A stretch of 34,079 bases of DNA from Desulfurococcales archaeon (GTDB lineage: Archaea; Thermoproteota; Thermoprotei_A; Sulfolobales; WAQK01). The DNA is taken from the NCBI GenBank assembly GCA_027083135.1, contig JALWQH010000054.1, positions 70,648 to 104,726 of the forward strand, written 5' to 3'. Below the pieces are notes generated by a model that saw nothing but the letters and a program-made list of their open reading frames with translations, had not been told where the DNA came from and did no database searches. The stretch's first letter is position 1, and the number at the start of each line of letters is the position of its first letter. The translations under genes and the position numbers were made by a program. Shown piece by piece: positions 5,309 to 24,101 of the stretch.

Positions 5309-5370
5309 TATGCTGCCACCACTCACATTATATATTGGGCCATATAATTAAAGCCTTCTATGGGGGTAAT
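5309..5370. promoter_or_regulatory. divergent promoter for RAM-domain gene/tiaS and tsr3
   Basis: In the gap between two divergent genes, the minus strand has TATATAAT (5327-5334), about 23 nt before ATG 5308. The plus strand has CATATAATTA (5341-5350), about 25 nt before GTG 5371. The two TATA boxes are only some 15 bp apart, so TBP binding on one side may affect the other. Confidence 0.5.
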
Positions 5371-5883
5371 GTGCCGCGAATATATGTGGTAGCATTATCC
5401 GAGGACGATCCCTCGAAATGCACTGCTGAGAAAATGCTGCGGGTAGGAGAGGCACGTAGGATTAGGGCTTCAAAAATACATCCTAGGGCAATAGTCCTTA
5501 ACCCCTACTCTGCCACCAGGATTTCCCCGAAGGATAGAATGCTTGCAGAGAAGGGAGGCATAGTAGTGGTTGACGCATCTTGGCGTAAACTCACCCCCAA
5601 TAAATTTAAACGGATAATTAGGAGAGGCGAGCCTAGAAGCCTCCCATACCTCGTAGCAACTAATCCCGTAAACTATGGTGTCCCAAGAGCTTTGAGCAGC
5701 ATAGAGGCTGTTATAGCCTCCCTATACATTCTCGGATACAGGAGCGATGCTCTCAGAGTCTCAGGTCTCTACAAGTGGACCCATCATTTCATAGAGCTTA
5801 ACAGGGAGCCACTAGAAGAATACTCCAGGGCCGCGGATGCTGACCAAATAAGGAGGATAGAGTCTCTATACACCCCTACCTAA
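5371..5883 (+). CDS. tsr3: rRNA aminocarboxypropyltransferase Tsr3
   Basis: Tsr3 transfers the aminocarboxypropyl group of S-adenosylmethionine to a methylated pseudouridine/uridine in helix 31 of small-subunit rRNA during ribosome maturation. The 170-aa protein carries the family blocks EDDPSKCTAEKML (11-23), AIVLNPYS (40-47) with the downstream ISPKD, IVVVDASW (64-71), and the C-terminal LVATNPVNYGVP and SSIEAVIASLYILG. Length matches archaeal Tsr3. The reading frame is open further upstream, but the GTG at 5371 sits about 25 nt downstream of a TATA box and begins just before the conserved RIYVVALSEDDPSK, so it is preferred. RNase P RNA follows on the same strand. Confidence 0.9.
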   Translation: MPRIYVVALSEDDPSKCTAEKMLRVGEARRIRASKIHPRAIVLNPYSATRISPKDRMLAEKGGIVVVDASWRKLTPNKFKRIIRRGEPRSLPYLVATNPVNYGVPRALSSIEAVIASLYILGYRSDALRVSGLYKWTHHFIELNREPLEEYSRAADADQIRRIESLYTPT

Positions 5884-5910
5884 TATTAGCCTTAATGCAT
5901 CAGATTTCTA

Positions 5911-6240
5911 CCGGCCGGCCCCGGCTGGCGGCCACGGGTCCTACAGGGACCTGAGGAAACTCCGCCCTCCCCGCGGCACCGGGGCCCCGCAAGGGGCGCG
6001 GGTAACACCCGCGGCAATGGCACAGAAACGACACGGCCACCCATGAATGGCTATGAGGCGGAGAGGCAGGCCTGGCGACAGGCCTGCAGCAACCCGCTGA
6101 GAACATGGGTGGAAGCGTTGAAACGGCCATCCCCCGGGGAGCAAGGCCCACGCCGATGAGGCGCCGCGTGAAGACGTGGGGGACCGCTAAGCCTAATGCC
6201 GCCGAAGTACAGAAGGCGGGTTATAGCCGGGGCCGGCCGG
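5911..6240 (+). ncRNA. rnpB: RNase P RNA (archaeal)
   Basis: This is the catalytic RNA that trims 5' leaders from pre-tRNAs. Recognised in order: a 5' strand CCGGCCGGCCCCGGC (from 5911) that pairs with the 3' strand GCCGGGGCCGGCCGG (ending 6240) as helix P1; conserved region I as GAGGAAACTCC (about 5953-5963); GGGTAACACCC; an ACAGAAACGACACGG block; GGAGCAAGGCC (about 6138-6148); and the conserved region V block ACAGAAGGCGGGTTAT near 6209-6224. The order and wording match the RNase P core, and about 330 nt fits archaeal type A RNAs. A TATA-like CTTAAT lies about 20 nt before the 5' end. The boundaries are set from P1 and may shift by a few bases. Translations across this stretch are spurious. 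Confidence 0.9.
6221..6226 (+). promoter_or_regulatory. putative TATA box of the transglutaminase gene inside rnpB
   Basis: TTATAG at 6221-6226 belongs to the conserved 3' core of RNase P RNA, yet its centre lies about 26 nt upstream of the ATG at 6250. This is the canonical distance from TATA to transcription start for a leaderless crenarchaeal mRNA. No other promoter-like sequence lies between rnpB and the gene. Cotranscription from the rnpB promoter is the alternative. Confidence 0.35.
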
Positions 6241-6249
6241 TGTAGAGCC

Positions 6250-7941: not shown

Positions 7942-8866
7942 GGTTGCAGTAGCCCTACTAATAGCCGCAGTGCTGGCATCACTTCTACTACCAGTAGGAC
8001 TGCCTAATATTGAAAAAGAATACAGCATACTCCTCAGGGCGGCGCCTCACGTATTAATGGTTGGAGGAGGCCCCATGATCCTGGGGGAAAGGGAGAAAGG
8101 AGTCCTCCTAATACCCCCTGCATTCACCCCTTACTCCCAGGAGGAGGTGCTGAGAATAAAGGAGCTTGCATCTTCAGGCTGGATTATCGTAATCCTCTGC
8201 GGACCAGGGTTTGAGAGAATAGTGGCCGAGGCGCTAGGGTATACGGTGTCTACAAGGCCTCTCCGCCAATATGGTGTGCAGGGCATGCTTGTATACTATG
8301 ATGACATGCGGATAAGGACCCCTCCCTTATATTCGATCTCAACGCACAGTGGCAATGCATCGGTATTAGCATCATCCCCCTACTCCTGGATCGACTATAA
8401 TGATAACGGCATATATGATCCTGGAGAGAATCTTGGAATGCATGCAGTGGCAATGGCGGCTAAGATTAATGAAGGAGTAGTTGTAGCAGTATCGGCTCCA
8501 ACACCACACCCCCTAAGAGATGCTGGTGAAGGATGGAACGAGATGCTTCTAGGCCTGCTTAGAAGATATGGGGGAAACTCAACGATATACGTTGACCTTT
8601 CAAAACAGCCCCGCCCCTCAGCAATAATGCTCCTAGCCGCGGCCTATATTATGGTGCATAGGTATGGCATACTCCTATTATCATTCACCTACCTCTCTGC
8701 AGCCACGGTGCTTGCAGGCCTTACATCCAAGCCTAAGCTTAAATCCTCTAAGACAAGAGGCGTGTGGAGGGAGAAGTATTCCTGGGGAATCCTGCCTTCA
8801 GGCCACGTTGAACTCGACGAGAAGCGTAGATCCCGCTTAGAGGCGTTATGGATTGAAGAAGTATAA
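7916..8866 (+). CDS. DUF4350-like membrane protein
   Basis: A 316-aa protein with an N-terminal hydrophobic helix (residues 9-27), an extracytoplasmic domain resembling a glutamine-amidotransferase/ThuA-like fold (HVLMVGGGP, VLLIPPAF, then SGWIIVILCGPG), and a pair of hydrophobic segments near residues 235-270 before a short cytoplasmic tail. DUF4350 proteins occur next to DUF58 and transglutaminase genes, which supports the assignment more than any motif does. The middle contains WIDYNDNGIYDPGEN, an Asp/Asn-rich stretch like a calcium-binding loop (D-N-D-N-G-x-Y-D). The TTG at 7916 has GGAGG about ten bases upstream and overlaps the preceding gene; no closer ATG exists. The function is not established. 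Confidence 0.7.
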   Translation: MYTGSQAGKVAVALLIAAVLASLLLPVGLPNIEKEYSILLRAAPHVLMVGGGPMILGEREKGVLLIPPAFTPYSQEEVLRIKELASSGWIIVILCGPGFERIVAEALGYTVSTRPLRQYGVQGMLVYYDDMRIRTPPLYSISTHSGNASVLASSPYSWIDYNDNGIYDPGENLGMHAVAMAAKINEGVVVAVSAPTPHPLRDAGEGWNEMLLGLLRRYGGNSTIYVDLSKQPRPSAIMLLAAAYIMVHRYGILLLSFTYLSAATVLAGLTSKPKLKSSKTRGVWREKYSWGILPSGHVELDEKRRSRLEALWIEEV

Positions 8867-8867
8867 T

Positions 8868-10262
8868 ATGAGTTTGCAGCGCATAGGCCTGGGGCCAGGA
8901 GTCCTAAGCCTCAGCATAGTGGTAGCAATACTTATGGCGGGTTCACTCTTCTATGAAAGCCTGCTTTCACTTCTAGCCTTAACCATGATTCTATCCCTGA
9001 TCACAGGACTCTGGGCATTGTTTAGCAGAAGTGTAGGCATGGTGGAAATGTATGTAGAGGCTGCGCCCTCCAGAATACATGCTGGGAGAACCCTTAGGCT
9101 AACGCTGAGGCTGCATAATTCCTCGCGCCTCCCCCTTATAGTTCGTGTAAGAGTTGAAAGCCCTTATAACGCGTTTTACAGGGACTATGGCTTCAAGCCC
9201 AATGTCTTGGAGGAAGTCGTTATACTCAGGCCTTTAAGCACTGCTGAAAAGCTCCTAACATTAGAGGGGCTTAAACGGGGAAGATACCTGTTAGAAAAAA
9301 TAGCGGTGAGGATCTCGGATGTCCTGGGAGTAGCAGTTGCCTCAGGCTTCTTCACCCCTCTCAATGAACCTCTAGAAATGCTGGTTATGCCTAGAATAGA
9401 GGTCATAGAGACAGCCTACCATGCGTATCGATCAGCCCTAAGGCTTCACGGCTCAGGCCTGCAGACTAGGAGAATGGGCTACGGCGTCATCTTCGCAGGG
9501 CATAGGGACTATCAGCCTGGCGATGATGCAAGGCTCATAGACTGGAAAGTCTTCGCTAGGCTTAGAAGGCTTGCAGTAAAGATGCATGAGCTTGAAGAGG
9601 AGGCCCTCTCACTCATAGTGGTAGATGCCACTAGGAGCATGATGCTAGGCCCTCCAGACAGATCAGCCCTGGACACATCTCTCTCGCTAGCCCTAAGCCT
9701 ATACGAGTACTCGAGGAGCAGGGGATCCAGGACAATGCTAGGAGCGTATAATGAGGAGCAGATCTGGATTGCAAGGGATCCCAGGCTTATTCCAATACTT
9801 CTAGCCGAGATCTATCCTGCTCCAAGGGAAGACCTGTACAGCAGATATGCTGACGTCTGGGAGAAGGCTAGAAGCGATGTAAAGCACATACAGCTCCTAA
9901 GAGTTCTGAGAGAGGCCGTTGTCCTGAATCCCCGTAGGATGAGAATACTGCTGATAACTGATCTCCCAGTAGTCTCGAATCCAACATCATTCCGCCTATA
10001 CCTTGAAAACATATTATCTGTGCTTAAAAGCAGGAGGCATGAGCTAATCATGGTTGCACCTGTCTCACCACTATTCGAACTCCGCTCGCTCAGCCATATT
10101 GATCTCAAGGGAGCGGAGCAGGCCATCAGAATATTCTCAAGAGGCTATCTTGACAATAAGAGGGTTGCATGGAGCATTGGGTATCCAGTATATTCTATGC
10201 CTCCCTCAATGAGTGTGGGCAGCATAATGCTCAAAATACTTGGCTGGCTTGCAAGGGGATAG
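8868..10262 (+). CDS. DUF58 domain protein (vWA-like, membrane anchored)
   Basis: A 464-aa protein with two hydrophobic helices near the N-terminus (about residues 10-55), a beta-rich segment (VEAAPSRIHAGRTLRLTLRL), and the DUF58 signature YQPGDDARLIDWKVFARLRR at residues 215-234. After it comes a von Willebrand A-like domain: LSLIVVDATRSMMLG carries a MIDAS-like DxTxS pattern, and LLITDLPVV a second strand. DUF58 proteins usually work with a MoxR AAA+ ATPase; no MoxR gene is present here. The ATG at 8868 follows the previous stop (8864-8866) by one base, so coupling is likely. It is probably part of one operon from 6250 to 10777. Confidence 0.88.
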   Translation: MSLQRIGLGPGVLSLSIVVAILMAGSLFYESLLSLLALTMILSLITGLWALFSRSVGMVEMYVEAAPSRIHAGRTLRLTLRLHNSSRLPLIVRVRVESPYNAFYRDYGFKPNVLEEVVILRPLSTAEKLLTLEGLKRGRYLLEKIAVRISDVLGVAVASGFFTPLNEPLEMLVMPRIEVIETAYHAYRSALRLHGSGLQTRRMGYGVIFAGHRDYQPGDDARLIDWKVFARLRRLAVKMHELEEEALSLIVVDATRSMMLGPPDRSALDTSLSLALSLYEYSRSRGSRTMLGAYNEEQIWIARDPRLIPILLAEIYPAPREDLYSRYADVWEKARSDVKHIQLLRVLREAVVLNPRRMRILLITDLPVVSNPTSFRLYLENILSVLKSRRHELIMVAPVSPLFELRSLSHIDLKGAEQAIRIFSRGYLDNKRVAWSIGYPVYSMPPSMSVGSIMLKILGWLARG

Positions 10263-10264
10263 CC

Positions 10265-10777
10265 GTGGAGCCAATATATGATGGGAGAGCAGCCATAAGC
10301 CTTGCAGCAGCTCTTTACCTGGCAGTACTCCTAATCCTAGGCTACTCCTGGATGATGGTGCTGCTAGGCCTGCTAGGCGTAGCAGCATATCTGCTTAAAC
10401 CTAGGGAGAGCCGGGGTGTGGGGGCAGTGCTCCTAGCATTATCCTCAATAACGCATTCCCCCGCCAATGCTTCATCAGCCTGCATTCAAGCCATACTGGC
10501 AGTCATCCTATTTGCATTAGTGGTTATCATGCTGATCCCCCTAGGCCTAGTAGGAGGCATTCACAGTGACCTAGCAGTAGTAATCATGGCCTCAGCGCTT
10601 CTAGCACTAGTAGCGTCAGCCGATATGCTGCTCCCCCCCTCCACATGGATGTATGAGGCCAGAGATGTTGCTACACGCATACTCATAACTCCGCCAATAG
10701 CTGCAGCCTCGTGTTACGCCTTGATGAGGCTTAAAGCGGAGCACGAGGCTTCGGGGAGAAGAGCCGAGGAGAAGTAA
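10265..10777 (+). CDS. small multi-pass membrane protein
   Basis: A 170-aa protein of mostly hydrophobic helices: about 11-27 and 30-48, then about 74-95, 99-114 and 135-151, ending in a charged tail (KAEHEASGRRAEEK). I recognise no family. It begins at GTG 10265, two bases after the DUF58 stop, and shares strand and spacing with the three genes before it, so it is probably the last member of the transglutaminase/DUF58 operon. Its role there could be a membrane platform for that complex; this is inference from context. The frame is open upstream inside the DUF58 gene, but that part reads as a shadow. Confidence 0.65.
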   Translation: MEPIYDGRAAISLAAALYLAVLLILGYSWMMVLLGLLGVAAYLLKPRESRGVGAVLLALSSITHSPANASSACIQAILAVILFALVVIMLIPLGLVGGIHSDLAVVIMASALLALVASADMLLPPSTWMYEARDVATRILITPPIAAASCYALMRLKAEHEASGRRAEEK

Positions 10778-10816
10778 TAAAATATTAATAGGGCCTCATT
10801 ACCGACTACTTATCCC

Positions 10817-11234
<418 letters not shown>

Positions 11235-11279
11235 TTATAAATGCCTGCATTCATGGTATATGTAATGATCGGCATATTT

Positions 11280-11312
11280 ATATTTATAAATATTTATGAC
11301 CATATAATATGG
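11280..11312. promoter_or_regulatory. two palindromes in the padR-ino1 divergent promoter
   Basis: ATATTTATAAATAT (11280-11293) is a perfect 14-bp palindrome overlapping the expected TATA box of ino1 (about 26-43 nt before its ATG). CCATATAATATGG (11300-11312) is a 13-bp palindrome with a single central base, just downstream at the likely transcription start. Both lie in the 88-bp gap between the divergent regulator and ino1 and would suit a dimeric winged-helix repressor. AT-rich DNA yields short palindromes by chance, so this is suggestive only. Confidence 0.4.
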
Positions 11313-11322
11313 TGGTGGAAAT

Positions 11323-12429
11323 ATGGGTAGGATACGTGTAGCATTGGCGGGTGTTGGGAACTGTGCCTCCGCACTGGTGCAGGGCACATTCTACTACAGA
11401 GAGGTAGACGACGACTCCTTTATTCCAGGCTTAATGCATCCGAGGCTGGGAGGATACCATGTTTCTGATATAGAATGGGTTGCAGCATTCGATGTATCTG
11501 AGAATAAAATAGGAAGAGACCTAGCTGAAGCAATATTCGCTGAACCCAACATAACACCCCGCTTCGCAGACATTCCCGAGAAGCTGGGAGTAGAGGTGAG
11601 TCCAGGGCCTGTGCTTGATGGAGTGGCACCTCACATGCAGGGGGTTTTCAAACCCCACGACGATGATGTATCAATGGATGACGTAGTAGATGTTCTGAGA
11701 GAATCTAAGGCCGACATACTTGTAAACCTGCTGCCCGTGGGCAGCGAGGAGGCAACACGCTTCTACGCTGAGGCTGCTAGGAGGGCGGGAGTAGCCTTCA
11801 TTAACGGCATGCCTGTATTCATAGCCAGTGACCCTACAGGGGAATGGCCGTCGAAATACGAGGAGGCAGGCCTCCCCCTCATAGGCGATGATATTAAGGG
11901 GCAGGTGGGAGCCACAATCCTTCATAGAACCCTTGTAAGGCTATTCCACTCCCGCGGAGTAAAAGTAGTTAAGACATATCAGCTGAACATAGGAGGCAAT
12001 ACAGATTTCCTTAACATGACTGTGGAGGAGAGGCTTAAAAGCAAGAGGATAAGCAAGACAAGAGCTGTTACAAGCATACTACCATACGGTGATGAGCTTG
12101 AGGCGAATAAAATGGTTAGAATAGGGCCAAGCGACTATGTTCCCTTCCTAGGGAACACGAAGATAGCCTACATATATGTTGAGGGGAAAAGCTTCGGCGA
12201 CTTCCCGATAACCGTGGAGGCAAAGCTAACAGTAGACGATAAAAGCATGTTCGCTGGAGCAATGATCGACGCTATAAGAGGAGCCAAGATAGCCCTAGAT
12301 AGAGGGGTAGCAGGACCCGTGCCTAGCGTGTCAGCATACCTGTTCAAGCATCCACCCGTACAGGCCAGCAGCGACGAAGAGGCTAGGCTCTGGTTCGAGG
12401 AGTTCGTTGAAGGTAAGCGGCCCCGCTAA
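11323..12429 (+). CDS. ino1: myo-inositol-1-phosphate synthase
   Basis: This enzyme converts glucose-6-phosphate to L-myo-inositol-1-phosphate with NAD in the cytoplasm. In hyperthermophilic archaea this feeds di-myo-inositol phosphate, a heat-protective solute, and inositol phospholipids. The 368-aa length suits the prokaryotic type. The protein opens with the Rossmann motif [16 protein letters not shown] (residues 6-21), has [12 protein letters not shown], and shows the family's NIGGNTDF and [11 protein letters not shown] blocks. The ATG has GGTGGTGG 5 nt upstream as a ribosome binding site. IPCT and DIPPS, the next two enzymes, lie at 28-29 kb. It is transcribed divergently from a PadR-like regulator. 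Confidence 0.95.
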
Positions 12430-12450
12430 CCAAACTTATTTATAGCCCTT

Positions 12451-12469
12451 CGCCGCCATAACGGCGGCG
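12451..12469 (+). promoter_or_regulatory. GC-rich hairpin in the leader of the pyr operon
   Basis: CGCCGCC (12451-12457) and GGCGGCG (12463-12469) form a perfect 7-bp stem with loop ATAAC, ending 7 nt before the pyrF start codon. A TATA-like TTATTTATA lies at 12437-12445, so the hairpin would be at or near the 5' end of the message and would cover the ribosome-binding region. It may control pyrF translation, or be a terminator for ino1; no T-run follows, which speaks against the latter. Confidence 0.4.
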
Positions 12470-12476
12470 GGCTTTC

Positions 12477-13154
12477 TTGACCCTAATAGTAGCCTTGGAT
12501 CCAGGGCCTGGCGTGGAGGGAAGCCGGGCCTATGAGTGGGCTAGAAGAATATGCACTGAAGTTAAACCCTATGCGGCAGGCTTTAAGATAGGGCTGCCAG
12601 CCCTCCTAAAAATAGGTGTGGAGAGGCTTAAAGAGGTAACCAGCAGTTGCCACGCCGAGCTAATGATCGCTGACCTCAAGCTTGCTGACATAGGGTATAT
12701 TATGAGCCTAGTAGCCGACGAGTTGTTAAACATGGGGTTTAACGCGGTAATAGCCCATGCCTTCACAGGCTACAAGGATGCACTGGAAAATCTATCAGCT
12801 ACTCTAAGAGGCCGCGGCAAGCTAATCACCGTGGCGGCCATGAGTCATAAGGGATCAGAGGAGATTATGGATAAAGTTGTAGAAGACCTGCTAGACGTAT
12901 CTATCAGGGCGGGTGCATGGGGCGTAGTCATGCCTGCAACAAGGCCTAAGCTAATAGGCTTTGGGAAGAAGAGGGGATTAACCATCCTATCACCCGGAAT
13001 AGGGGTTCAGGGGGCAAAACCTGGCACAGCGCTTTGCAGCGGAGCAGACTACGAGATAGTTGGGAGAAGCATAACAGGTAGCCCTAATCCAGGGGAAGCA
13101 GCTAGGAAAATAGTGGAGGCGCAGAGGGAGGCGATGGCTGAATGCAGGGCCTAG
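12477..13154 (+). CDS. pyrF: orotidine 5'-phosphate decarboxylase
   Basis: The enzyme decarboxylates OMP to UMP, the last step of de novo pyrimidine synthesis. The 225-aa protein has the catalytic DLKLADI motif (Asp66, Lys68, Asp71), the N-terminal IVALDPG (4-10), GFKIG with Lys37, and the phosphate-binding end (ILSPGIGVQG, then DYEIVGRSITGSPNPGEAA). All catalytic residues are present. It starts at TTG 12477; no ATG is close. It is the first gene of the pyr cluster and overlaps pyrE by 13 bp. Confidence 0.95.
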   Translation: MTLIVALDPGPGVEGSRAYEWARRICTEVKPYAAGFKIGLPALLKIGVERLKEVTSSCHAELMIADLKLADIGYIMSLVADELLNMGFNAVIAHAFTGYKDALENLSATLRGRGKLITVAAMSHKGSEEIMDKVVEDLLDVSIRAGAWGVVMPATRPKLIGFGKKRGLTILSPGIGVQGAKPGTALCSGADYEIVGRSITGSPNPGEAARKIVEAQREAMAECRA

Positions 13155-13717
13155 AAGAATGGCTTGCCAAAGAACTGTATGGGAAATCAATGCTGCTTCT
13201 AGGCAGATTTAAGCTTTCCTCAGGAGGCTACAGCACCTATTACTTCGACCTGAGAAGAATGTACAGCTACCCCGACATATATAGGCGTATTATAGAGGCC
13301 TTCGGAGACCTCGTATGCCTCAACGGGTGCCCCGACATGCTTATAGGAGTGGCTACCGCAGGCATACCTCTAGCAGCCATGACGGCTTGGCTTAAAGGCC
13401 TGTCCATGGGATATGTGAGGATAGAGCGGAAGAGCCATGGTGGAGGACGTTTCGTGGAAGGCGTGGTGGAGGGGCGCAGCATCATCGTGGTAGATGATGT
13501 TGCCACCACTGGCAGAAGCATAGCTGAAGCAGTGGAGAAGGTGAGGAAAAGCGGTGGGATGGTTCGTGGAGCAGCAGTAATTATTGATAGAGAGGAGGGG
13601 GCAGAAGAGCTTCTAGGCAAAATGGGTGTGAAGCTATATAGCTTAGCCAAGGCTCCCAATATTCTTAGGATACTAGGCGTAAATCCTGGGAGCCTTGGAG
13701 AGGGAGGGAAAAGCTAA
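13142..13717 (+). CDS. pyrE: orotate phosphoribosyltransferase
   Basis: The enzyme joins orotate and PRPP to give OMP. The 191-aa protein shows the PRPP-binding motif IIVVDDVATTGRS (114-126), the catalytic-loop Lys in YVRIERKSHGGG (Lys97), and the N-terminal KLSSGGYSTYYFDLRR, which forms the orotate site. The length is normal for archaeal PyrE. ATG 13142 lies inside the end of pyrF, so the two are coupled; OMP passes directly from PyrE to PyrF. Confidence 0.95.
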   Translation: MQGLEEWLAKELYGKSMLLLGRFKLSSGGYSTYYFDLRRMYSYPDIYRRIIEAFGDLVCLNGCPDMLIGVATAGIPLAAMTAWLKGLSMGYVRIERKSHGGGRFVEGVVEGRSIIVVDDVATTGRSIAEAVEKVRKSGGMVRGAAVIIDREEGAEELLGKMGVKLYSLAKAPNILRILGVNPGSLGEGGKS

Positions 13718-13750
13718 TAAGCCTGCTCCCCACTCATCAAGGTCGGGCTT

Positions 13751-14467
13751 TTGGATTCAGGAGTAGATGCGAGGGAGCCTGAAGCAAGGGATTATACTAG
13801 GCCTCCGCGCCTTCTCCACGGGATTCCACGACCCTTTAAGATTACAAGTATTAGGGAGGAGAGCCTGGGAGAGGCGGGTTTCCTTGAAGTAGAGGCTGTT
13901 AGCCTTAGTGAATTAATAGAGGGTTGGGAGGGGCCTCCGCAATTCGCGCTGCTTGCCTCTCCAGGATTATGCGAGGATAAGGCTCCCATATTAGAGGCAG
14001 GTAACAATAGGGTGCTCATAGCTGTTAGCATGAATAGCGTATGCGCCGAGCAGCTGTCTGACGCTTACATACTTCTCAAGCTCCCCTTAGGGCGACGCGT
14101 ATCTTTCAATGAGGGGAGAATCGCACTAATAGCTGAGTCTAAGAAGCAGGTTGTATGGCTTGCACCATTCTCTAGGAGGAGCCGAGACCACATGGTAGTA
14201 TTCGCCCCTAAGCCCGGAGAGGTTGATGAGATTATAGGTGGAGGAGGGGTTGACGAGTTCGTAGTGGCAGGCAGCGTAGGATACCTGAGGAAAATGGCAG
14301 AAGTATTCATTGCTAACGGCGTAGATCCATTGATGATCGCTGACACGCAGGTTAAATGCGGCCTAGGCCTCTGTGGAAGCTGTTTGATAGAGGGGACAGG
14401 CCTTCTAGCATGCGTGGAAGGACCTGGGCTGCGGGCATCCCTGCTTATAGGGGGTGATAGGAGATGA
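13751..14467 (+). CDS. PyrK-like electron-transfer subunit of dihydroorotate dehydrogenase, divergent
   Basis: PyrK carries FAD and a [2Fe-2S] cluster and passes electrons from PyrD-type 1B enzyme to NAD. This 238-aa protein has the C-terminal [2Fe-2S] motif CGLGLCGSCLIEGTGLLAC with four cysteines in family spacing, followed by EGPG. The flavin motif RxYS and the nucleotide motif GGGxGxxP of standard PyrK are not evident: the region reads LPLGRRVSFNEG, and IIGGGGVDEFVVAGSVGYL instead. It may therefore use a different cofactor arrangement or acceptor, such as ferredoxin. The TTG start at 13751 is uncertain. The stop overlaps pyrC (ATGA), and pyrD is in the same operon, which supports the role. 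Confidence 0.75.
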   Translation: MDSGVDAREPEARDYTRPPRLLHGIPRPFKITSIREESLGEAGFLEVEAVSLSELIEGWEGPPQFALLASPGLCEDKAPILEAGNNRVLIAVSMNSVCAEQLSDAYILLKLPLGRRVSFNEGRIALIAESKKQVVWLAPFSRRSRDHMVVFAPKPGEVDEIIGGGGVDEFVVAGSVGYLRKMAEVFIANGVDPLMIADTQVKCGLGLCGSCLIEGTGLLACVEGPGLRASLLIGGDRR

Positions 14468-15780
14468 GCGTCTGCGTAGAGGCAAGAGCCCTGCTGAGAG
14501 GCAGAGTTATGCCTGTAACTCTGGTCATAGAGAACGGTGTTGTGATCGAATCGTGGTTCGGGAATTCCTGTCCCCCAGGCTACGAGAAATTCTCGTTCAC
14601 CCGTGAAGGCTTAGTTCTCCTACCTGGACTCATAGATCTACACGTACATCTCAGAGGGCTTAATCAAAGCTATAAGGAAGACGAGTATACGGGGACAGCA
14701 GCGGCTGCGGCTGGAGGCTATACTGGAGTAGTCGATATGCCTAACACTTATCCGAAGATCAATACTTTAAGCACACTTAGATCTAAGGTTAAAGCCTATG
14801 AGGATAAGGCGCTGGTAAACTATGGGATCCATGTGGGTGTTCCCGTGGAGAGAGCTTACGAGCTGCTTAGAAGCCCTGTGGTTATGGGGCTTAAAATATA
14901 TCCCTACGACTTATATAATGCCGAGTCTGTGAGAGAAGCTTCTAGAGCTGCAGGAATGCTGGGTAAGCCTGTTATAGTTCATTGCGAGCATCCCGCCGCC
15001 ATAAGGGAGGGGTGTAGGGCGGGTGAGAGATGGATATGCAGGGGCCTGGAAGCCGAGAAGCTCTGTTTAAGGGAGGTGCAGAGGCTTATTGATCCTCAAG
15101 CCCATGTTCACGTAACCCATGCAACATCCCCTGAACTCGTGTATGGTGCTAGAAGCCTGGGCTTCACGGTTGACACCTGTCCCCACTACTTCATGCTTTC
15201 ATCAGATGATGAGAGGAAGCTTGGATGCTTAGGCAAGGTTAACCCTCCGCTGAGGCCGAGGAGCATTGCTGATAAAATGCTGGAGCTTGTCGTCGACGGG
15301 GGGGTTGATGCCCTGGTGAGCGACCATGCACCCCACACTGTGGAGGAGAAGAACATGGGCTTCGACATATGCCCTGCAGGCATGACTGGGCTTGAAGCAT
15401 ACTCGAGGATAATGTTAGACCTCGCCCTAAGAGGGCTGATTAGGCTGGAGCTTATGGTGAAGCTCATGTCAACGGGGCCTGCAAGAATACTGGGTATTAG
15501 GAGATATGGATGCATTGAAAACGGATGCAGGGCTAATTACACTATAATAAATATTAAAAAGGGAGGCGTGATAAGGCCCTGCCTCTTCTACAGTAAGGCT
15601 AAGTACTCCCCCTTCGAGGGGTATAGGCATAGGGGAGATATAGAGGCAACCATTGTGAACGGCCTCCCCATATACCTGGATGGAGAATTAATCCCTGAGA
15701 ACAGGTTACCCGTGCCTCTAGGTGAGTGGACATGTTCCTTGAGACGCAGGTTATGGGTCTTAGACTCAGAAACCCGCTAA
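14464..15780 (+). CDS. pyrC: dihydroorotase
   Basis: The enzyme cyclises N-carbamoylaspartate to dihydroorotate; it is a zinc amidohydrolase. In 438 aa the metal ligands and catalytic residues are visible: His60 and His62 in LIDLHVHLRG, the candidate carboxylated Lys144 in GLKIYPYD, His173 in VIVHCEHP, His219 in HVTHATS, and Asp287 in VSDHAPHT. MPNTYP (92-97) is also typical. ATG 14464 overlaps the stop of the PyrK-like gene by 4 nt. Its last 49 bp are shared, in another frame, with the start of pyrD. Confidence 0.94.
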   Translation: MSVCVEARALLRGRVMPVTLVIENGVVIESWFGNSCPPGYEKFSFTREGLVLLPGLIDLHVHLRGLNQSYKEDEYTGTAAAAAGGYTGVVDMPNTYPKINTLSTLRSKVKAYEDKALVNYGIHVGVPVERAYELLRSPVVMGLKIYPYDLYNAESVREASRAAGMLGKPVIVHCEHPAAIREGCRAGERWICRGLEAEKLCLREVQRLIDPQAHVHVTHATSPELVYGARSLGFTVDTCPHYFMLSSDDERKLGCLGKVNPPLRPRSIADKMLELVVDGGVDALVSDHAPHTVEEKNMGFDICPAGMTGLEAYSRIMLDLALRGLIRLELMVKLMSTGPARILGIRRYGCIENGCRANYTIINIKKGGVIRPCLFYSKAKYSPFEGYRHRGDIEATIVNGLPIYLDGELIPENRLPVPLGEWTCSLRRRLWVLDSETR

Positions 15781-16640
15781 TGAACGCCAGCGGGATCCTC
15801 GGAGATAAGGGAGAATTATTGGAGAGGCTGGCTGACTCGGGATTAGGAGCCGTTGTTTCGAAAACCATAACTCCCGAGCCGCGTAGAGGCTATGATCCCC
15901 CCATAATCTTAGCCCTACCTAGTGGAGGAGTGCTTAACGCTGTTGGCCTAGCTAATCCCGGGATGAATGCATTAGATGAGCTGCTCTCAAGAATTAGAGA
16001 TAGAGATGTGCCTGTAATAGTGAGCGTTGGGGGTAGAACCCCTGAGGAATACGCGGCTGTTGCAGGCAGGGCTGAGGAGGCTGGAGCCAGTGCAGTGGAG
16101 ATCAATCTGAGCTGCCCTCACACAGAGGGGTATGGGGCAGACACAGCGTCAACCATAGATATGATTAGAAGAATAGTTGGAGCAGTAGCCTCCACCATAT
16201 CGATACCTGTGTCAGCTAAGCTTGGCTGGAGTCCACAGCTAGTATCAGCAGTCAGCACAGCGCTTAGCTCAGGGGCCTCGGCAGTCACACTGATAAACGT
16301 TTTGAAGGCCATGTATATAGACGTGTATACGGGGAGACCTGTCCTCACACACGGCATCGGTGGGTTGGGAGGCCCGCCAGTACACCCTGTTGCCGTAGCC
16401 TCCGTCTACATGGCGTACAGGGAGACGGGCGCAGATATCATTGGGGTTGGAGGAGTATACGATTGGAGAAGCGCTGTAGAGCTGATCCTTGCAGGGGCGA
16501 AAGCCGTTGGAATAGGCAGTATGATTCTAGGCAGAGAACGCATACTAGTTAAAGAGATCACAGATGGAATGAGGAAATGGCTTAAGGAGATGGGACTAGC
16601 ATCCATCAAGGAAGCCGTAGGATTAGCGCATAGAAGATAG
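15732..16640 (+). CDS. pyrD: dihydroorotate dehydrogenase, class 1B-like catalytic subunit
   Basis: This FMN enzyme oxidises dihydroorotate to orotate. The 302-aa protein has NPLMNASGILGDKGEL (14-29), LNAVGLANPG (68-77), and the class 1 catalytic cysteine in VEINLSCPHTEGYG (Cys128). FMN phosphate binding is at IIGVGGVYDW and AVGIGSMIL. A catalytic Cys rather than Ser marks class 1, and the neighbouring PyrK-like gene suggests 1B. ATG 15732 has GGTGAG five bases upstream; GTG 15726 is an alternative. Either start lies inside pyrC, giving an overlap of about 50 bp. It is the last gene of the operon. Confidence 0.94.
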   Translation: MFLETQVMGLRLRNPLMNASGILGDKGELLERLADSGLGAVVSKTITPEPRRGYDPPIILALPSGGVLNAVGLANPGMNALDELLSRIRDRDVPVIVSVGGRTPEEYAAVAGRAEEAGASAVEINLSCPHTEGYGADTASTIDMIRRIVGAVASTISIPVSAKLGWSPQLVSAVSTALSSGASAVTLINVLKAMYIDVYTGRPVLTHGIGGLGGPPVHPVAVASVYMAYRETGADIIGVGGVYDWRSAVELILAGAKAVGIGSMILGRERILVKEITDGMRKWLKEMGLASIKEAVGLAHRR

Positions 16641-16769
16641 ATGAGCAGAAGCAAGTATTTAGCATTACAGATTGATTAGGGCAGAAACATTAGATTATAG
16701 CTTCTTTTATATTGATTTGTATCCTTTTTACGGGTGGGGAGGATTCATATGCATCGTCGGCTACAATAC
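16641..16769. other. intergenic, downstream of the pyr operon
   Basis: There is no convincing coding region. The stretch contains AT-rich segments (TTTTATATTGATTTG near 16702-16716) and ATTCATATGC at 16743-16752, which could be a TATA box for the GC-rich element that begins near 16770. Nothing else was recognised. Confidence 0.4.
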
Positions 16770-16962
16770 TTTCCGGGCCCGGCTGGGTGATGGGGGCTTT
16801 GCTTCGAGCCCCCGGCTAAGAGTAGATGCGGGGCCCGGGTGCCGCTGGGCTTCTAGGCCCCATAAACCAAGGGATGAGCCTTAGTGGAGAGCCCCCAGGA
16901 GCGAGGAGAGAACCAGTGAAAACCGCACCACAATGAAACCAGGAAGAAACAGAGCGGTACGG
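16770..16962 (+). ncRNA. candidate structured RNA, unknown family
   Basis: This GC-rich, stop-containing stretch stands out between pyrD and a minus-strand membrane gene. CCGGGCCC near 16775 can pair with GGGCCCGG near 16831-16838. Inside lies a second hairpin, GGGGGCT...AGCCCCC, with loop TTGCTTCG. Further 3' the sequence is purine-rich with AACCGC and GCGGTT able to pair over about 50 nt. An ATTCATATGC element sits about 25 nt before the proposed 5' end. I compared it with SRP RNA, RNase P RNA and C/D or H/ACA guides and found no convincing match. Strand and ends are guesses. Confidence 0.3.
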
Positions 16963-17229
16963 TCAGAGGAAGCGGTTAATACCAGTACTCTTGAATAAGA
17001 TAAGATACGCAGCAACTACAACTATGGTTAACACTACTCCAAGAATGGTGAGAATCTTAGCTGCCCCAGGACTGCTGCCAATAACTATTGGGAAAGGACC
17101 TATAATTATAACAGCTCCCCCTTCAACCTTGCCCCCCCTACTCCAAGCCTCACTTATAAGCCCCACTATAACTAAAAGCAAGCCGGCAAACACAAGTATA
17201 AAGCCGAGGGCAGTCAGCCTAGCATCCAC
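16963..17229 (-). CDS. DUF131 family small membrane protein
   Basis: An 88-aa protein with two hydrophobic helices (about residues 5-24 and 58-80) and, between them, GGAVIIIGPFPIVIGSSP, the conserved block of the archaeal DUF131 (TIGR00304) family, which I recognise from memory. The function of the family is unknown. The start is GTG 17229; a TATA-like CTATATTTG lies about 18 nt upstream. It sits alone between the candidate RNA element and the origin-like region and points away from the latter. Confidence 0.78.
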   Translation of the reverse strand: MDARLTALGFILVFAGLLLVIVGLISEAWSRGGKVEGGAVIIIGPFPIVIGSSPGAAKILTILGVVLTIVVVAAYLILFKSTGINRFL

Positions 17230-17400
17230 GTACAGCCACCATCAAATATAGGGGCTGCAGCAGAATATATAAACATACGTTAATGTTGCATGCCATGCAA
17301 AACACCTTCAATGCGTATGGAGCCCACTACTTCCACTCCAAGAGGCATACAAATGACAGGCATACAAAAACTTATATACTATGAGGACTTGTCCCATCAA
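17230..17400. other. non-coding left flank of the origin-like region
   Basis: No gene is visible. Repeats: TTGCATGCCATGCAA (17285-17299), an inverted repeat with a short centre; two direct copies of AGGCATACAAA at 17343-17353 and 17358-17368, 15 bp apart; and GGAGCCCACT at 17319-17328, which recurs in the inverted repeat at 17.7 kb. On the minus strand GGAGTGGAAGTAGTGGG (about 17322-17338) may be a degenerate ORB element. Confidence 0.4.
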
Positions 17401-17402
17401 GT

Positions 17403-17431
17403 CCCCCCCACCCCTCGGCTTCCTATGGAAC
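17403..17431 (-). repeat. ORB-like element A
   Basis: On the minus strand this reads GTTCCATAGGAAGCCGAGGG followed by G-rich TGGGGGG. The TTCCATAGGAA dyad and the G-string match the archaeal ORB pattern. It marks the left edge of the AT-rich stretch. Confidence 0.6.
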
Positions 17432-17486
17432 TCTGGATATCTAATATATCATGAAAATTGTATGAGAAGGGGTTTGTATAAACTAT

Positions 17487-17506
17487 TTTAGATCAGCTGA
17501 TCTAAA
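17487..17506. repeat. 20-bp perfect palindrome in the AT-rich stretch
   Basis: TTTAGATCAGCTGATCTAAA is self-complementary over its whole length. It sits between ORB-like elements A and B, in the presumed unwinding region. It could be a binding site for a dimeric protein. A weaker hairpin (TCTCTGC and GCAGATCTC arms) follows at about 17540-17570. Confidence 0.7.
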
Positions 17507-17598
17507 TACTCATTCAATATCATCAAATAACATATTATGATCTCTGCTGTATTAGCCATGCAGATCTCATGATGTTATGTAATAGCCTTATCTGAGCG

Positions 17599-17625
17599 TC
17601 TTCCACAAGAAGAGAGGGGAGGGGG
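17599..17625 (+). repeat. ORB-like element B
   Basis: The plus strand reads TCTTCCACAAGAAGAGAGGG then GAGGGGG. It has the TTCCACA half of the dyad, a degenerate GAAG half and a long G-string. Orientation is opposite to element A across the AT-rich stretch. Confidence 0.55.
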
Positions 17626-17633
17626 CTCATTAT

Positions 17634-17707
17634 AGTGGGCTCCACACGAAGCCATGGGGTCAGAGAAGCACGCCTTTTAAACCCCATGGTTTCCTGTGGA
17701 GCCCACT
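17634..17707. repeat. nested inverted repeat formed by ORB-like elements C and D
   Basis: Outer arms AGTGGGCTCCACA (17634-17646) and TGTGGAGCCCACT (17695-17707) are perfect 13-bp complements. Inner arms CCATGGGGT (17652-17660) and ACCCCATGG (17681-17689) are perfect 9-bp complements. The 5-bp segments between the arms (CGAAG and TTTCC) differ. The arms read as two head-to-head ORB elements: C (17639-17661, GCTCCACACGAAGCCATGGG plus GTC) and D (minus, 17677-17702, GCTCCACAGGAAACCATGGG plus GTTT). Confidence 0.7.
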
Positions 17708-17749: not shown

Positions 17750-17765
17750 GGTAATACGTATTACC
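17750..17765. repeat. 16-bp perfect palindrome downstream of the XRE-CBS gene
   Basis: GGTAATACGTATTACC is perfectly self-complementary. It ends 4 bp beyond the stop codon of the XRE-CBS regulator gene (3' side). It is a plausible operator or part of a terminator; no T-run follows on the minus strand. Confidence 0.6.
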
Positions 17766-17769
17766 TGTA

Positions 17770-18375
17770 TTATTGCTTTGATGCTTCAGGTGACAGTATT
17801 CTACTCTTAATGACATCTATCTTTGCTATGATTCCCTTGACTAGTCCTTTTTCAACTACTAGTACTGCGGGATATTCTGTGAGCATCTCTACTACCAGGT
17901 CTACTGGTGTTGAAGGGGCTACTATTGGTAGTGGTTCCTCCATAATGTCACCTACTTTAAGCATGGATGGCTTAGGAGTAGCTGAGAGGGCTTTTAGAAT
18001 GCTTGTTTCATGTATTGTTCCAAGTATTCTTCCTTCATAGTCAACTATAGGGATCTGGGAGATGCCGTATTGCTCCATGAGTTCTACAGCCTTATTTACA
18101 TCATCGTCGGGATGCAGTGTGATTACGGGTTGATGCATAATATCTTCTGCCTTCATGGATGGGCCTAGAGCCTCCTCAAGAACCTTGACTATTCTTTGAA
18201 GGGTTGAAAGCCTAGGATTTACAGCTCCACTTTCAATCCGCGCTATAAGGGCCTGGCTGACCCCTGCTCTCATGGCAAGTTCCTTCTGAGTTAAGCCTGC
18301 CTTAAGTCTGAGTTCCCTCAGCCGCTGAGGGAACCTCAGTATCTCTGTTAGGACGCTCATCTCTCCCCTAATCAT
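17770..18375 (-). CDS. XRE-type HTH regulator with tandem CBS domains
   Basis: A 201-aa protein. Residues about 15-70 form a helix-turn-helix (LRELRLKAGLTQKELAMRAG, VSQALIARIESG), and residues about 77-195 form two CBS motifs (AEDIMHQPVITLHPDDDVNK...GISQIPIVDYEGRILG and VGDIMEEPLPIVAPSTPVD...). CBS pairs bind adenosyl ligands such as AMP, ATP or S-adenosylmethionine, so it is probably a DNA-binding sensor of nucleotide state. Fusions of this kind are widespread in archaea; targets are unknown. ATG 18375 lies about 22 nt downstream of an AT-rich TATA-like AAATCAAATTAA. It is divergent from porG and borders the origin-like region, so either could be its target. Confidence 0.88.
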   Translation of the reverse strand: MIRGEMSVLTEILRFPQRLRELRLKAGLTQKELAMRAGVSQALIARIESGAVNPRLSTLQRIVKVLEEALGPSMKAEDIMHQPVITLHPDDDVNKAVELMEQYGISQIPIVDYEGRILGTIHETSILKALSATPKPSMLKVGDIMEEPLPIVAPSTPVDLVVEMLTEYPAVLVVEKGLVKGIIAKIDVIKSRILSPEASKQ

Positions 18376-18512
18376 ATAGTACCTGTGGGTTAATTTGATT
18401 TTAGAGGGATTAACATGGCTGCATTGATAATTTCTATAAATAAGCTCTCTCCAAAATGATAAACATTTATTATTTTAGATATCATAGATATTATGTTGGT
18501 GGCCATAGCGTC

Positions 18513-19061
18513 TTGTTGGTTGAACTGGTGTTTCACGGAAGAGGCGGCCAGGGCGCAGTAACTGCGGCTAGATTATTGGTGGGCGCTGTCCATAGGGAAG
18601 GACTTGAAGGACAGGCATTCCCGCACTTCGGCGCTGAGAGGCGTGGAGCACCTGTAAGGGCCTATGCAAGAATATCCGACAGGCCTATAAGAATACACGA
18701 GGAGGTGCGTAGACCAGACATTGTAGTGGTGCTTGACCCTGATCTCCCTAAACTGGTTGACGTAACCCGGGGCCTTAAGAACAATGGAGTCATTGTGATA
18801 AACTCGAAGACCCCAGTGTTATTTAACGGCTATAGAGCCTACTTTGTGGATGCTACGGGAATAGCCCTGGAACTCGGCTTAATAGTGGCTGGATGGCCTG
18901 TTGTAAACACATCTATGCTAGGCGCCCTAGCTAAAGCCACAGGCCTCGTCAGCATAGAATCAGTGATGCGAGAGATAAAGGAGTATTGGCCTGGAAGGAT
19001 AGGTGAGGCGAACGCCCGGGCCGCCGAGCTGGCCTATAGCAGGGTGAAGAAGGTTGAGTGA
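18513..19061 (+). CDS. porG: 2-oxoacid (pyruvate):ferredoxin oxidoreductase, gamma subunit
   Basis: Gamma subunit of the four-subunit enzyme that oxidises pyruvate and CoA to acetyl-CoA, CO2 and reduced ferredoxin. The conserved opening LVELVFHGRGGQGAVTAARL and the block PHFGAERRGAPVRAYARIS are diagnostic. About 182 aa are expected from the TTG at 18513, which has GGTGG about ten bases upstream; an ATG at 18456 is in frame but would add an atypical Tyr-rich leader. It is the first gene of an uninterrupted operon gamma-delta-alpha-beta, overlapping the next by 8 bp. Confidence 0.9.
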   Translation: MLVELVFHGRGGQGAVTAARLLVGAVHREGLEGQAFPHFGAERRGAPVRAYARISDRPIRIHEEVRRPDIVVVLDPDLPKLVDVTRGLKNNGVIVINSKTPVLFNGYRAYFVDATGIALELGLIVAGWPVVNTSMLGALAKATGLVSIESVMREIKEYWPGRIGEANARAAELAYSRVKKVE

Positions 19062-19335
19062 GCAGGAGGAAGACCATTTGGTTCTACCCGTCTCCCACCC
19101 GTCTCCAGGGGCAATGGGGCCTACAGGGTACTGGAGAAACTTTAAGCCCGTCATAGATCAGGAGAAATGCATCAAATGCCTTCTCTGCTGGCTCTTCTGC
19201 CCTGAAGGCACAATAATACGCCATGAGGATAACAGCGTCTCAGTAGACTATGATTACTGTAAGGGGTGCGGTGTGTGTGCGAACGAGTGCCCGGTAAACG
19301 CTATAAAAATGGTTCCAGAAGGTGAGGAGCAGTGA
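19054..19335 (+). CDS. porD: 2-oxoacid:ferredoxin oxidoreductase, delta subunit (2x[4Fe-4S] ferredoxin)
   Basis: This 93-aa ferredoxin-like subunit carries electrons from the thiamine site to external ferredoxin. Both clusters are intact: CIKCLLCWLFCPEG and CKGCGVCANECPVNAI, with the spacing CxxCxxCxxxCP. The N-terminal GYWRNFKPVIDQEKC is typical of PorD. It starts at TTG 19054 within the end of porG, and its stop overlaps the GTG of porA. Confidence 0.92.
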   Translation: MSEQEEDHLVLPVSHPSPGAMGPTGYWRNFKPVIDQEKCIKCLLCWLFCPEGTIIRHEDNSVSVDYDYCKGCGVCANECPVNAIKMVPEGEEQ

Positions 19336-20498
19336 CTGTGAAGCTGCTCACAGGAAACTACACTGTAGCCGAGGCAGCAAGGCTTGCTAGAGTGAAGGTT
19401 GTAGCGGCTTTCCCCATAACACCTCAAACCACCATTGTTGAGAAGATAGCTGAGATGATAGAGCACGGCGAGATGGATGCCGAGATGATACATGTTGAGA
19501 GCGAGCATTCAGCACTAGCAGCAGCATATGGGGCTGCAGCAGGGGGAGTTAGAGCGTTCACAGCTACTTCTAGTCAAGGCCTCCTCTACATGCATGAGGT
19601 TGTATGGTGGGTTGCGGGTTCAAGGATCCCCCTAGTAATGGCAATTGTTACAAGGGCTATAGGTCCCCCATGGAACATACATGTAAGCCACGAGGACATA
19701 ATGGATCAGCGGGATACAGGCTGGATAATCTCCATAGCCGAGGATAACCAGGAGGTCCTCGACCTGACATTACAGGCCTTCAGGATAAGCGAGGATCCAA
19801 GAGTCTATCTCCCTGCAATGGTGGGTTTAGACGGCTTCATACTCAGCCATACAACAATGCCTGTAGATGTTCCAAGCCAGGAGGAGGTTGACTCCTGGCT
19901 CCCTCCTAGGAGTCCAGGCCCCTATGTTATTGAGCCTGGCAGCGGAGTGATTATGGGCAACATCCCCCCCGATGAGGACTACATGAGAATGCGGAAAGCC
20001 ATGCAGACAGCCATGAGGAACGCAGAGCGCGTGATAATGGAGGTTGAAGAAGAATACTACAAGCTTACTGGCCGCAGATACGGGGGGCTGCTGGAATGCT
20101 ATAGGTGTAGCGACGCTAAGTATGCGGTGGTATTGATGGGGACTTGGGCTGGAAACGCTAAGGAAGCTGCGGATAGGCTGAGGGAGAAGGGTTACCCTGT
20201 AGGAGTGGCCAGAATACGCTACATAAGGCCTTTCCCCTCAATGCTTCTCAGAGAGAAGCTCGGAGGTATGAAGGGTGTAATGGTGATGGATCGATCAGTC
20301 TCTATGGGTAGAGGAGGCCCTCTGTTCTTAGAGGTTGCTGAAGCCCTTAGGTCGAAGCCATCCATGATGAGCGTAATAGCGGGTGTTGGAGGAGTAGATG
20401 TAGGTGTAGATGATATTTCAAGCCTCGTTGAAAAGTTTATTGGAAAAGTGGAGGAGAGGGGCCACGTATACATCGATGAATACTGGTACGGGGTGTAA
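19332..20498 (+). CDS. porA: 2-oxoacid:ferredoxin oxidoreductase, alpha subunit
   Basis: The alpha subunit (388 aa) holds the pyrimidine side of thiamine diphosphate and the substrate pocket. LLTGNYTVAEAARLARVKVVAAFPITPQT (positions 5-33) and HVESEHSALAAAYGAAAGGVRAFTATSSQGL are the PorA signatures; GVARIRYIRPFP and VMDRSVSMGRGGPLF form the C-terminal domain. The phrase AFPITPQT resembles pyruvate-type rather than 2-oxoglutarate-type enzymes, but the substrate range is not settled by sequence. GTG 19332 overlaps the porD stop. Confidence 0.92.
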   Translation: MTVKLLTGNYTVAEAARLARVKVVAAFPITPQTTIVEKIAEMIEHGEMDAEMIHVESEHSALAAAYGAAAGGVRAFTATSSQGLLYMHEVVWWVAGSRIPLVMAIVTRAIGPPWNIHVSHEDIMDQRDTGWIISIAEDNQEVLDLTLQAFRISEDPRVYLPAMVGLDGFILSHTTMPVDVPSQEEVDSWLPPRSPGPYVIEPGSGVIMGNIPPDEDYMRMRKAMQTAMRNAERVIMEVEEEYYKLTGRRYGGLLECYRCSDAKYAVVLMGTWAGNAKEAADRLREKGYPVGVARIRYIRPFPSMLLREKLGGMKGVMVMDRSVSMGRGGPLFLEVAEALRSKPSMMSVIAGVGGVDVGVDDISSLVEKFIGKVEERGHVYIDEYWYGV

Positions 20499-20501
20499 AT
20501 A

Positions 20502-21413
20502 ATGGTTAACATAAAGGAACTACCCTCTAAAACCCTCCTCATGCCAGGCAATGCAGCCTGCCCTGGATGTCCTGAAACCCTTGGACTACGCTACGTCAGC
20601 ATGGCTCTGGGAGATAAGGCCGTCCTAGTAATACCCGCCGGGTGCTCCTCGGTTATTCAGGGAATATATCCTAAGAGCGGAATAGGGTTCCCCATACTCA
20701 ACATAGTCTTCGCCGCGGCAGCCTCGGCAGCCTCAGGGCTTGCAAGAGCCTATAAGATACGTGGCCTTGAAGACGCCCAGGTAGTAGTATGGGCAGGGGA
20801 TGGTGGAACAGGGGATATAGGGATACAAGCCCTAAGCGGCGCGGCTGAGCGTAATGAGAACATCATATACATATGCGTCGACAATGAGGCCTACATGAAC
20901 ACAGGCATTCAGAGGAGCAGCCTCACACCCTATGGTGCATGGACAACCACCACGTGGACCGGTAAGAAGGAGCATAAGAAGGATGTACCCTTAATCATGA
21001 TAGCCCACGGCGCACCATATGTAGCCACGGCAAGCGTAGGTTTTCCGACAGACTTCATAGAGAAGCTTAGGAGAGCAGCCAGCATCAAGGGCTTAAAATA
21101 CATTCATCTACACGCGCCATGCCCTGTAGGATGGCGCTTCGATCCGTCCAAGACAGTGGAGGTAGCTAAACTAGCAGTCCAGACAGGCATCTGGGTACTC
21201 TACGAGTATAGGGGCGGCGTGTTCAGAATAAGTCCTCTAAGCAGGCCCTACGCCAAGAAGGAGCGTAGGAAGCCGCTTAAAGAGTACTTAAAGCTGCAGG
21301 GGAGGTTCAGGCATCTGGGAGAAGATGATGTAAAGGTGCTTGAAGCCTATATTGAGGAGAGATGGAAGCTATACTTAAACATGGAGAAAACCCTGGGATC
21401 CAAGGCTACATAG
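20502..21413 (+). CDS. porB: 2-oxoacid:ferredoxin oxidoreductase, beta subunit
   Basis: The beta subunit (303 aa) binds the thiamine diphosphate tail with Mg2+ (WAGDGGTGDIG followed by VDNEAYMNTG) and a [4Fe-4S] cluster through CPGCPE and further cysteines (CSSVIQG; HAPCPVGW). GIQRSSLTPYGAWTTTT is typical of PorB. It begins 3 nt after porA stops. Its final 8 bp overlap the convergent sec61-beta gene. Together with porG, porD and porA it makes a complete enzyme linking glycolysis products or acetyl-CoA assimilation to ferredoxin. Confidence 0.93.
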   Translation: MVNIKELPSKTLLMPGNAACPGCPETLGLRYVSMALGDKAVLVIPAGCSSVIQGIYPKSGIGFPILNIVFAAAASAASGLARAYKIRGLEDAQVVVWAGDGGTGDIGIQALSGAAERNENIIYICVDNEAYMNTGIQRSSLTPYGAWTTTTWTGKKEHKKDVPLIMIAHGAPYVATASVGFPTDFIEKLRRAASIKGLKYIHLHAPCPVGWRFDPSKTVEVAKLAVQTGIWVLYEYRGGVFRISPLSRPYAKKERRKPLKEYLKLQGRFRHLGEDDVKVLEAYIEERWKLYLNMEKTLGSKAT

Positions 21414-22993: not shown

Positions 22994-23452
22994 TCATAAT
23001 TTAGGGTTATTGTCTTCCAGCCTGTTTTGAGGCATTCTTGCAACAGCTTTGCGGAGAGTCCTGCTGAACTCGTGATCCAGTATCTCCTCCACCACCATCC
23101 ATACATTCTGCATCCATGTGAGATCCCTGTAGAGATTGTTCTTCTCTGCTAGGACCTGTGCTACAAGGTGGTAGCATGGCCTAGGCTTCATTCTACCCAC
23201 AGTGTTCACGAGGAAGTCCCTGCAGGAACAATAGGTTCGAGGAATCACGAGGTAGTCACGGGTTCTACCCATATAAACCCATAGTTCAGGGTTTCTGGAG
23301 ATGAGGACGAGCCTTTTATCCTTTAGGGCTGAGGCTAGCTTAGAGTGCCTGTAGGCTGACAGGAACTCCTGGGATGATAGCTGGGCTTCTAAGTCCAGGA
23401 TCCTATAGGAGGCCTCTCCTCCTCTTAAACTCCTTGACCACGGCCTCGCCAC
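22994..23452 (-). CDS. SWIM zinc-finger protein
   Basis: A 152-aa protein with a SWIM-type motif: CSC (in RTYCSCRDFLVN) followed by CYHLVAQVLA, i.e. CxC-x(n)-CxH, around residues 75-103. SWIM domains in archaea and eukaryotes (for example Sws1/Shu2 relatives) bind DNA or recombination proteins; the archaeal role is not established. The GTG at 23452 is the only in-frame start before the conserved part and overlaps rpiA by 50 bp. It is cotranscribed with rpiA and elf1 by position; the link between these functions is unclear. Confidence 0.75.
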   Translation of the reverse strand: MARPWSRSLRGGEASYRILDLEAQLSSQEFLSAYRHSKLASALKDKRLVLISRNPELWVYMGRTRDYLVIPRTYCSCRDFLVNTVGRMKPRPCYHLVAQVLAEKNNLYRDLTWMQNVWMVVEEILDHEFSRTLRKAVARMPQNRLEDNNPKL

Positions 23453-24101
23453 TCCTCATCCCCACTACTAGTCGATCCACGTATCCTATGAACAGCCCCG
23501 TATCCACTACTCCAGGTATGCGTAGCAGCCTGGCTTCAAGTCCTTCAGGATCCTCTATGACTCCTACCTGCAAATCTATAATAACGCCACCGTTATCGCT
23601 TATGCATGGCCCATCCTTGCATCTGCTGCTCCGTATAGAGGCGTTTAAACCCATGCTTCTAAGCGCTTTTAAAACATGGCTTACAGCATTGGGTAGAACC
23701 TCTATTGGCAGAGGCTTGCCTCCCAGCTTCCCCACGAGCTTAGACTCATCGACCACAAATATATTTCTCCTCGAAATATATGCAAGCATCTTCTCCCTCA
23801 CATGGGCTCCGCCACGCCCCTTGATCATGTTTCCCTCAGCGTCAACCTCGTCAGCACCATCAATGTATACGTCCACGTGATCCACCGTGGATAGATCCAG
23901 CAGCCTGGCCTCCATCTCTCTGAGCTTTAGGGCTGTATCCAGGGAGGAGGCAACAAACATTCTTCCATGCATGAGGTTCTTCTCCCTAAGAGCCTCGATG
24001 AAAAATGCAACGGTGGATCCTGTACCCACACCTATGATCCTATCCTCATCGAGTATCATATCTGCAGCCCTATAACCTGCGGCCCGCTTAGCCTTCTCCA
24101 C
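23403..24101 (-). CDS. rpiA: ribose-5-phosphate isomerase A
   Basis: The enzyme interconverts ribose-5-phosphate and ribulose-5-phosphate, supplying ribose for PRPP and so for the pyr pathway. The 232-aa protein has IGVGTGSTVAFFIEAL (phosphate loop), HVDVYIDGADEVDAEGNMIKGRGGAHVREKML (active-site Asp, Lys), and VDESKLVGKLG. GTG 24101 lies about 24 nt downstream of a TTTAATG TATA-like box. It heads the leftward operon rpiA-SWIM-elf1-GGGPS. Confidence 0.95.
   Translation of the reverse strand: MEKAKRAAGYRAADMILDEDRIIGVGTGSTVAFFIEALREKNLMHGRMFVASSLDTALKLREMEARLLDLSTVDHVDVYIDGADEVDAEGNMIKGRGGAHVREKMLAYISRRNIFVVDESKLVGKLGGKPLPIEVLPNAVSHVLKALRSMGLNASIRSSRCKDGPCISDNGGVIIDLQVGVIEDPEGLEARLLRIPGVVDTGLFIGYVDRLVVGMRSGEAVVKEFKRRRGLL

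Follow-up and report, generated by a model that had tools for sequence, protein, structure and literature searches.

The window analysed here, a stretch of 34,079 nucleotides (G000:C54:70648-104726), belongs to a draft genome of 1.75 Mb in 57 contigs, all of which were taken and joined for the genome-wide scans. One of these contigs, C14, consists of N over its whole 1605 bases. The region between a small membrane-protein gene (TIGR00304) and a gene coding for an HTH-CBS (hereafter CBS-HTH) protein is gene-free and carries most of the features of Table 1. Beyond the CBS-HTH gene lie the operon of a 2-oxoacid:ferredoxin oxidoreductase (POR) and the gene of ribose-5-phosphate isomerase A (RpiA), and a perfect 16-bp palindrome, GGTAATACGTATTACC, is found just past the 3' end of the CBS-HTH gene (17750-17765). 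On the opposite side, the TiaS gene is separated from the cluster by an interval (5064-16962) containing the RNase P RNA (5916-6235), a tRNA-Ala, and transglutaminase/DUF58, pyrimidine and other genes. The annotated neighbours in the window are metabolic, HTH-CBS or membrane-protein genes.

Table 1. Features of the ORB cluster and of its neighbourhood, in window coordinates.
Feature	Position	Strand	Sequence	Score or remark
TiaS gene	3714-5063	-
Small membrane-protein gene	16963-17229	-		TIGR00304
Degenerate outer ORB	17303-17322	-	CTCCATACGCATTGAAGGTG	7.4 bits; outside the initially annotated range
ORB beyond the unwinding segment, other side	17411-17430	-	TTCCATAGGAAGCCGAGGGG	31.7 bits, rank 2
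Candidate duplex unwinding element	17437-17536			100-bp stretch of lowest stability in the region; nearest-neighbour stability z = 4.46
ucm-like element	17472-17482	-	TTTATACAAAC	10/11 match to Sulfolobus ucm
Perfect 20-bp palindrome	17487-17506		TTTAGATCAGCTGATCTAAA	within the AT-rich segment, beside the ucm
Weak ORB-like copy	17601-17620	+	TTCCACAAGAAGAGAGGGGA	10.8 bits, rank 15 genome-wide
ORB, inner half of facing pair	17640-17659	+	CTCCACACGAAGCCATGGGG	27.0 bits, rank 3
ORB, outer half of facing pair	17682-17701	-	CTCCACAGGAAACCATGGGG	33.6 bits, rank 1 (strongest)
HTH-CBS protein gene	17770-18375	-		Pfam
POR operon	18456-21413	+		Pfam
RpiA gene	23403-24101	-

The initial annotation had described four ORB copies in the gene-free region. 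All four lie in the claimed range and orientation, and the copy quoted as the best one reads exactly as given, on the minus strand at 17682-17701. Three are strong, but the copy at 17601-17620 is weak and credible by position only. A first genome scan relied on YTCCANNGGAAACNNNGGGGT, which we took to be the Aeropyrum-type ORB consensus. The only sites scoring 16/16, 15/16 and 14/16 in the 1.75 Mb genome were three of the four copies in the window, and five randomised genomes yielded nine 14s in total and none above. Searching 197 genomes of the order with the pattern revealed many matches (in 47 genomes), often paired a few hundred bases apart, versus few with a reversed control. We then scored the genome with a position matrix trained on 115 ORBs, none of them from the family to which the window belongs (consensus AGTGGGCTCCACAGGAAACAGAGGGGTGTG). 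The three highest-ranking sites of the genome fall inside the window, within 291 bp of each other, whereas the best score elsewhere was 14.6 bits and ten random strands reached at most 18.9. No equal-scoring cluster, nor any second ORB cluster, was found elsewhere in the genome by this matrix scan, which leaves the origin reading standing. The ORBs at 17640-17659 and 17682-17701 form a 27-bp inverted repeat (17634-17660/17681-17707) that is 93% complementary. A fifth, weak copy at 17303-17322, absent from the initial annotation as was the ucm-like element, occupies the position of the second tandem ORB of relatives, and its GTGGGCTCCATACGCAWT is kept in both sister-genus genomes.

The candidate duplex unwinding element is flanked by the ORBs at 17411 (-) and 17640 (+), which have opposed polarity. 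Segments as unstable as this one represent 0.11% of those in the genome, at 21 loci. The Sulfolobus ucm with which the element inside this segment was compared, ATTATACAAAC, was read off wild-type and control oligonucleotides (PMC12141716). In Sulfolobus the ucm is bound between the two ORBs by the protein UBP, the product of SiRe_1573, and its mutation abolished detectable oriC1 activity in S. islandicus. Matches of 10/11 occur at 7 sites of the present genome and 11/11 at none. A match of 9-11/11 between the ORBs was found in the origins of all 17 relatives (shuffled expectation 2.8), and the orientation of the element relative to the layout is the same here as in most of them. The ubp gene was found neither by residue pattern nor among five basic small proteins compared with solved structures, from which we do not conclude that it is absent. 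The 20-bp palindrome is one of 17 palindromes of at least 20 bp in the genome; it was rejected as a conserved origin element, the origins of relatives being devoid of any palindrome of at least 14 bp. Cumulative GC skew was uninformative: it does not turn at 17.5 kb, and its maximum on this contig of a draft assembly is located about 4 kb away and tracks gene direction. No plasmid match to the region was found, hence there is no sign of a plasmid origin.

Most of the 17 relatives, including Aeropyrum pernix, share a single layout consisting of a facing ORB pair, an AT-rich segment with the ucm, and outer tandem ORBs, that is '+ - [AT] + +' or its mirror image. The window fits this layout once the weak copy at 17303 is counted. 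A protein of the G027 genome matches the 2v1u chain, which we take to be A. pernix Orc1-1, with 100% identity across 144 residues. In this A. pernix genome, four ORBs (35.9, 32.4, 29.0 and 23.9) surround an AT-rich segment at C1:444.9-445.2 kb, beside an RpiA-family gene. Marker frequency analysis showed that both A. pernix origins are active and that one corresponds to the Orc1-1-dependent oriC1 of Sulfolobus (PMC10769869). We infer that the ORB cluster is that oriC1, because it is the only place in that genome matching the pattern.

The genes flanking the cluster vary across relatives (POR, RpiA, TiaS or CBS-HTH) but the layout remains constant. The CBS-HTH gene adjoins the ORB cluster in four families (f1, f2, f4 and f8), the POR operon lies beside it in relatives too, and in A. 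pernix the cluster directly adjoins the gene of an RpiA relative. In the two sister-genus genomes the cluster has this same CBS-HTH gene on one side and TiaS on the other. In other families one flank is occupied by CBS-HTH together with POR, by POR without CBS-HTH, or by RpiA, and the opposite flank usually by TiaS. The window shares the neighbourhood formed by CBS-HTH, POR, TiaS and RpiA with ORB clusters in several other families; with A. pernix it shares RpiA. A TiaS relative directly flanks the cluster in most relatives; the roughly 12 kb that separate it from the origin here are a lineage-specific insertion or rearrangement. A sequence search with the CBS-HTH protein returned distant relatives only and nothing on origins.

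Two Orc1/Cdc6 genes above the cut-off were detected in the genome, on contigs C53 and C18. The absence of such a gene near the element, reported initially, extends to the whole of the window's contig. The orc1-1 gene (C53:658-1887) encodes a protein 62% identical to A. pernix Orc1-1, whose best solved-structure match is 2v1u (E 5e-143). Its nearest counterparts are A. pernix Orc1-1 and Sulfolobus Cdc6-1, whereas that of the C18 protein is 1fnn. Since orc1-1 lies on another contig, it is not adjacent to the origin, from which it must be at least 16.4 kb distant if it lies to the right and 88 kb if it lies to the left. The initial annotation had regarded the missing initiator gene as noteworthy, yet such a situation is usual outside the Sulfolobaceae-like family: in those relatives whose assemblies are contiguous, orc1-1 generally lies tens to hundreds of kb from the ORBs (113 kb in A. 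pernix, ~122 kb in G074, ~300 kb in G045 and ~390 kb in G061). In A. pernix, neither cdc6 gene is located next to an origin (PMC5333045). The distance is 0.1-0.2 kb in G135, G154 and G178, which belong to family f11, most likely the Sulfolobaceae. An adjacent orc1-1 is not a defining requirement of oriC1, as the oriC1 of A. pernix has no such neighbour. In seven genomes of family f11 the CBS-HTH gene is found 3-9 kb from orc1-1, which makes it plausible that CBS-HTH, oriC1 and orc1-1 were neighbours ancestrally and were separated later.

Judging from its sequence, the element at 17303-17701 is very probably a chromosomal origin of replication that depends on Orc1-1 and is the orthologue of A. 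pernix and Sulfolobus oriC1. As such it is a well-formed, ordinary oriC1, an already-known type of origin. The origin reading proposed initially is supported by the unique ORB cluster, the unstable segment between ORBs, the ucm, the Orc1-1 gene, and a layout, location and neighbourhood conserved in relatives including A. pernix, all of which are observed here. Counting against it are the weakness of one inner and one outer ORB, the lack of a skew turn at the site, and the negative search for ubp among five candidates. By analogy with work on Sulfolobus and Aeropyrum, from which binding, helicase loading and firing are inferred, Orc1-1 monomers encoded on the other contig would occupy the ORBs to either side of the AT-rich segment, each with a fixed polarity. 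In its ATP state, Orc1-1 would recruit the MCM helicase to this segment. A ucm-binding protein sitting on the ucm between two helicases would then aid their departure, giving rise to two forks.

The weakness of two ORB positions (10.8 and 7.4 bits) would also be expected of a dormant or former oriC1, whose sequence has been kept while another origin, for instance a WhiP-type oriC3, does the work; dormant origins are known from haloarchaea (PMC4595724). We nevertheless consider such a state very unlikely, as the three strong ORBs score within the range seen in the A. pernix cluster, neither the ucm nor the unstable segment has been lost, and the genome holds no other ORB cluster. Even less credible, to the point of being nearly negligible, is that the cluster is not an origin but a set of sites through which Orc1 or another regulator controls the flanking TIGR00304 and CBS-HTH genes. 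The 16963-17229 gene does start a short way downstream of the weak copy at 17303, the inverted repeat at 17634-17707 could be an operator, and Orc1/Cdc6 binds outside origins in Pyrococcus (PMC5333045). However, it is the 3' end of the CBS-HTH gene that faces the cluster, which consequently is not its promoter, and the flanking genes differ between relatives while the layout is unchanged. Both the ucm and the unwinding segment are features of origins.

The CBS-HTH protein contains two ligand-binding CBS domains. Its gene is linked to oriC1 as a conserved neighbour, and a regulatory role of the protein in firing is speculation: its position by the origin possibly links metabolic state to replication, or is merely conserved gene order. 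A broader proposal, that the site of oriC1 by CBS-HTH and POR is older and stabler than the link with the initiator gene and that the CBS-HTH protein helps control firing by energy charge, strikes us as improbable. The assignment of 17303-17701 as an origin locates oriC1 in a lineage of which very few relatives have been sequenced. Across the order, ORBs, ucm and gene neighbourhood stay together as the initiator gene moves away. Consequently, finding origins from sequence alone becomes practical in uncultured relatives, and the proximity of an initiator gene is ill-suited as an origin criterion in this group.

Compared with known origins, the element most closely recalls the oriC1 of A. pernix, with a facing pair, an AT-rich segment and a tandem pair built on the same ORB consensus, a ucm-like site between them, and an orc1-1 gene that is not adjacent. 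It differs by the extra weak ORB at 17601 and by its degenerate outer ORB. Moreover, whereas an rpiA-family gene adjoins the A. pernix origin, the POR operon and the CBS-HTH gene separate that of the window from rpiA. Opposed ORBs around an AT-rich segment and a central ucm are likewise shared with the oriC1 of Sulfolobus and Saccharolobus (PMC12141716), although the Sulfolobus origin contains three ORBs and has orc1-1 directly beside it. The WhiP-dependent oriC3 also possesses a ucm (PMC12141716), as does the present element. Yet oriC3 is defined by WhiP and adjoins whiP, whereas no gene identified as whiP figures among the annotated neighbours of the element described here, which bears strong ORBs of the Orc1-1 type.
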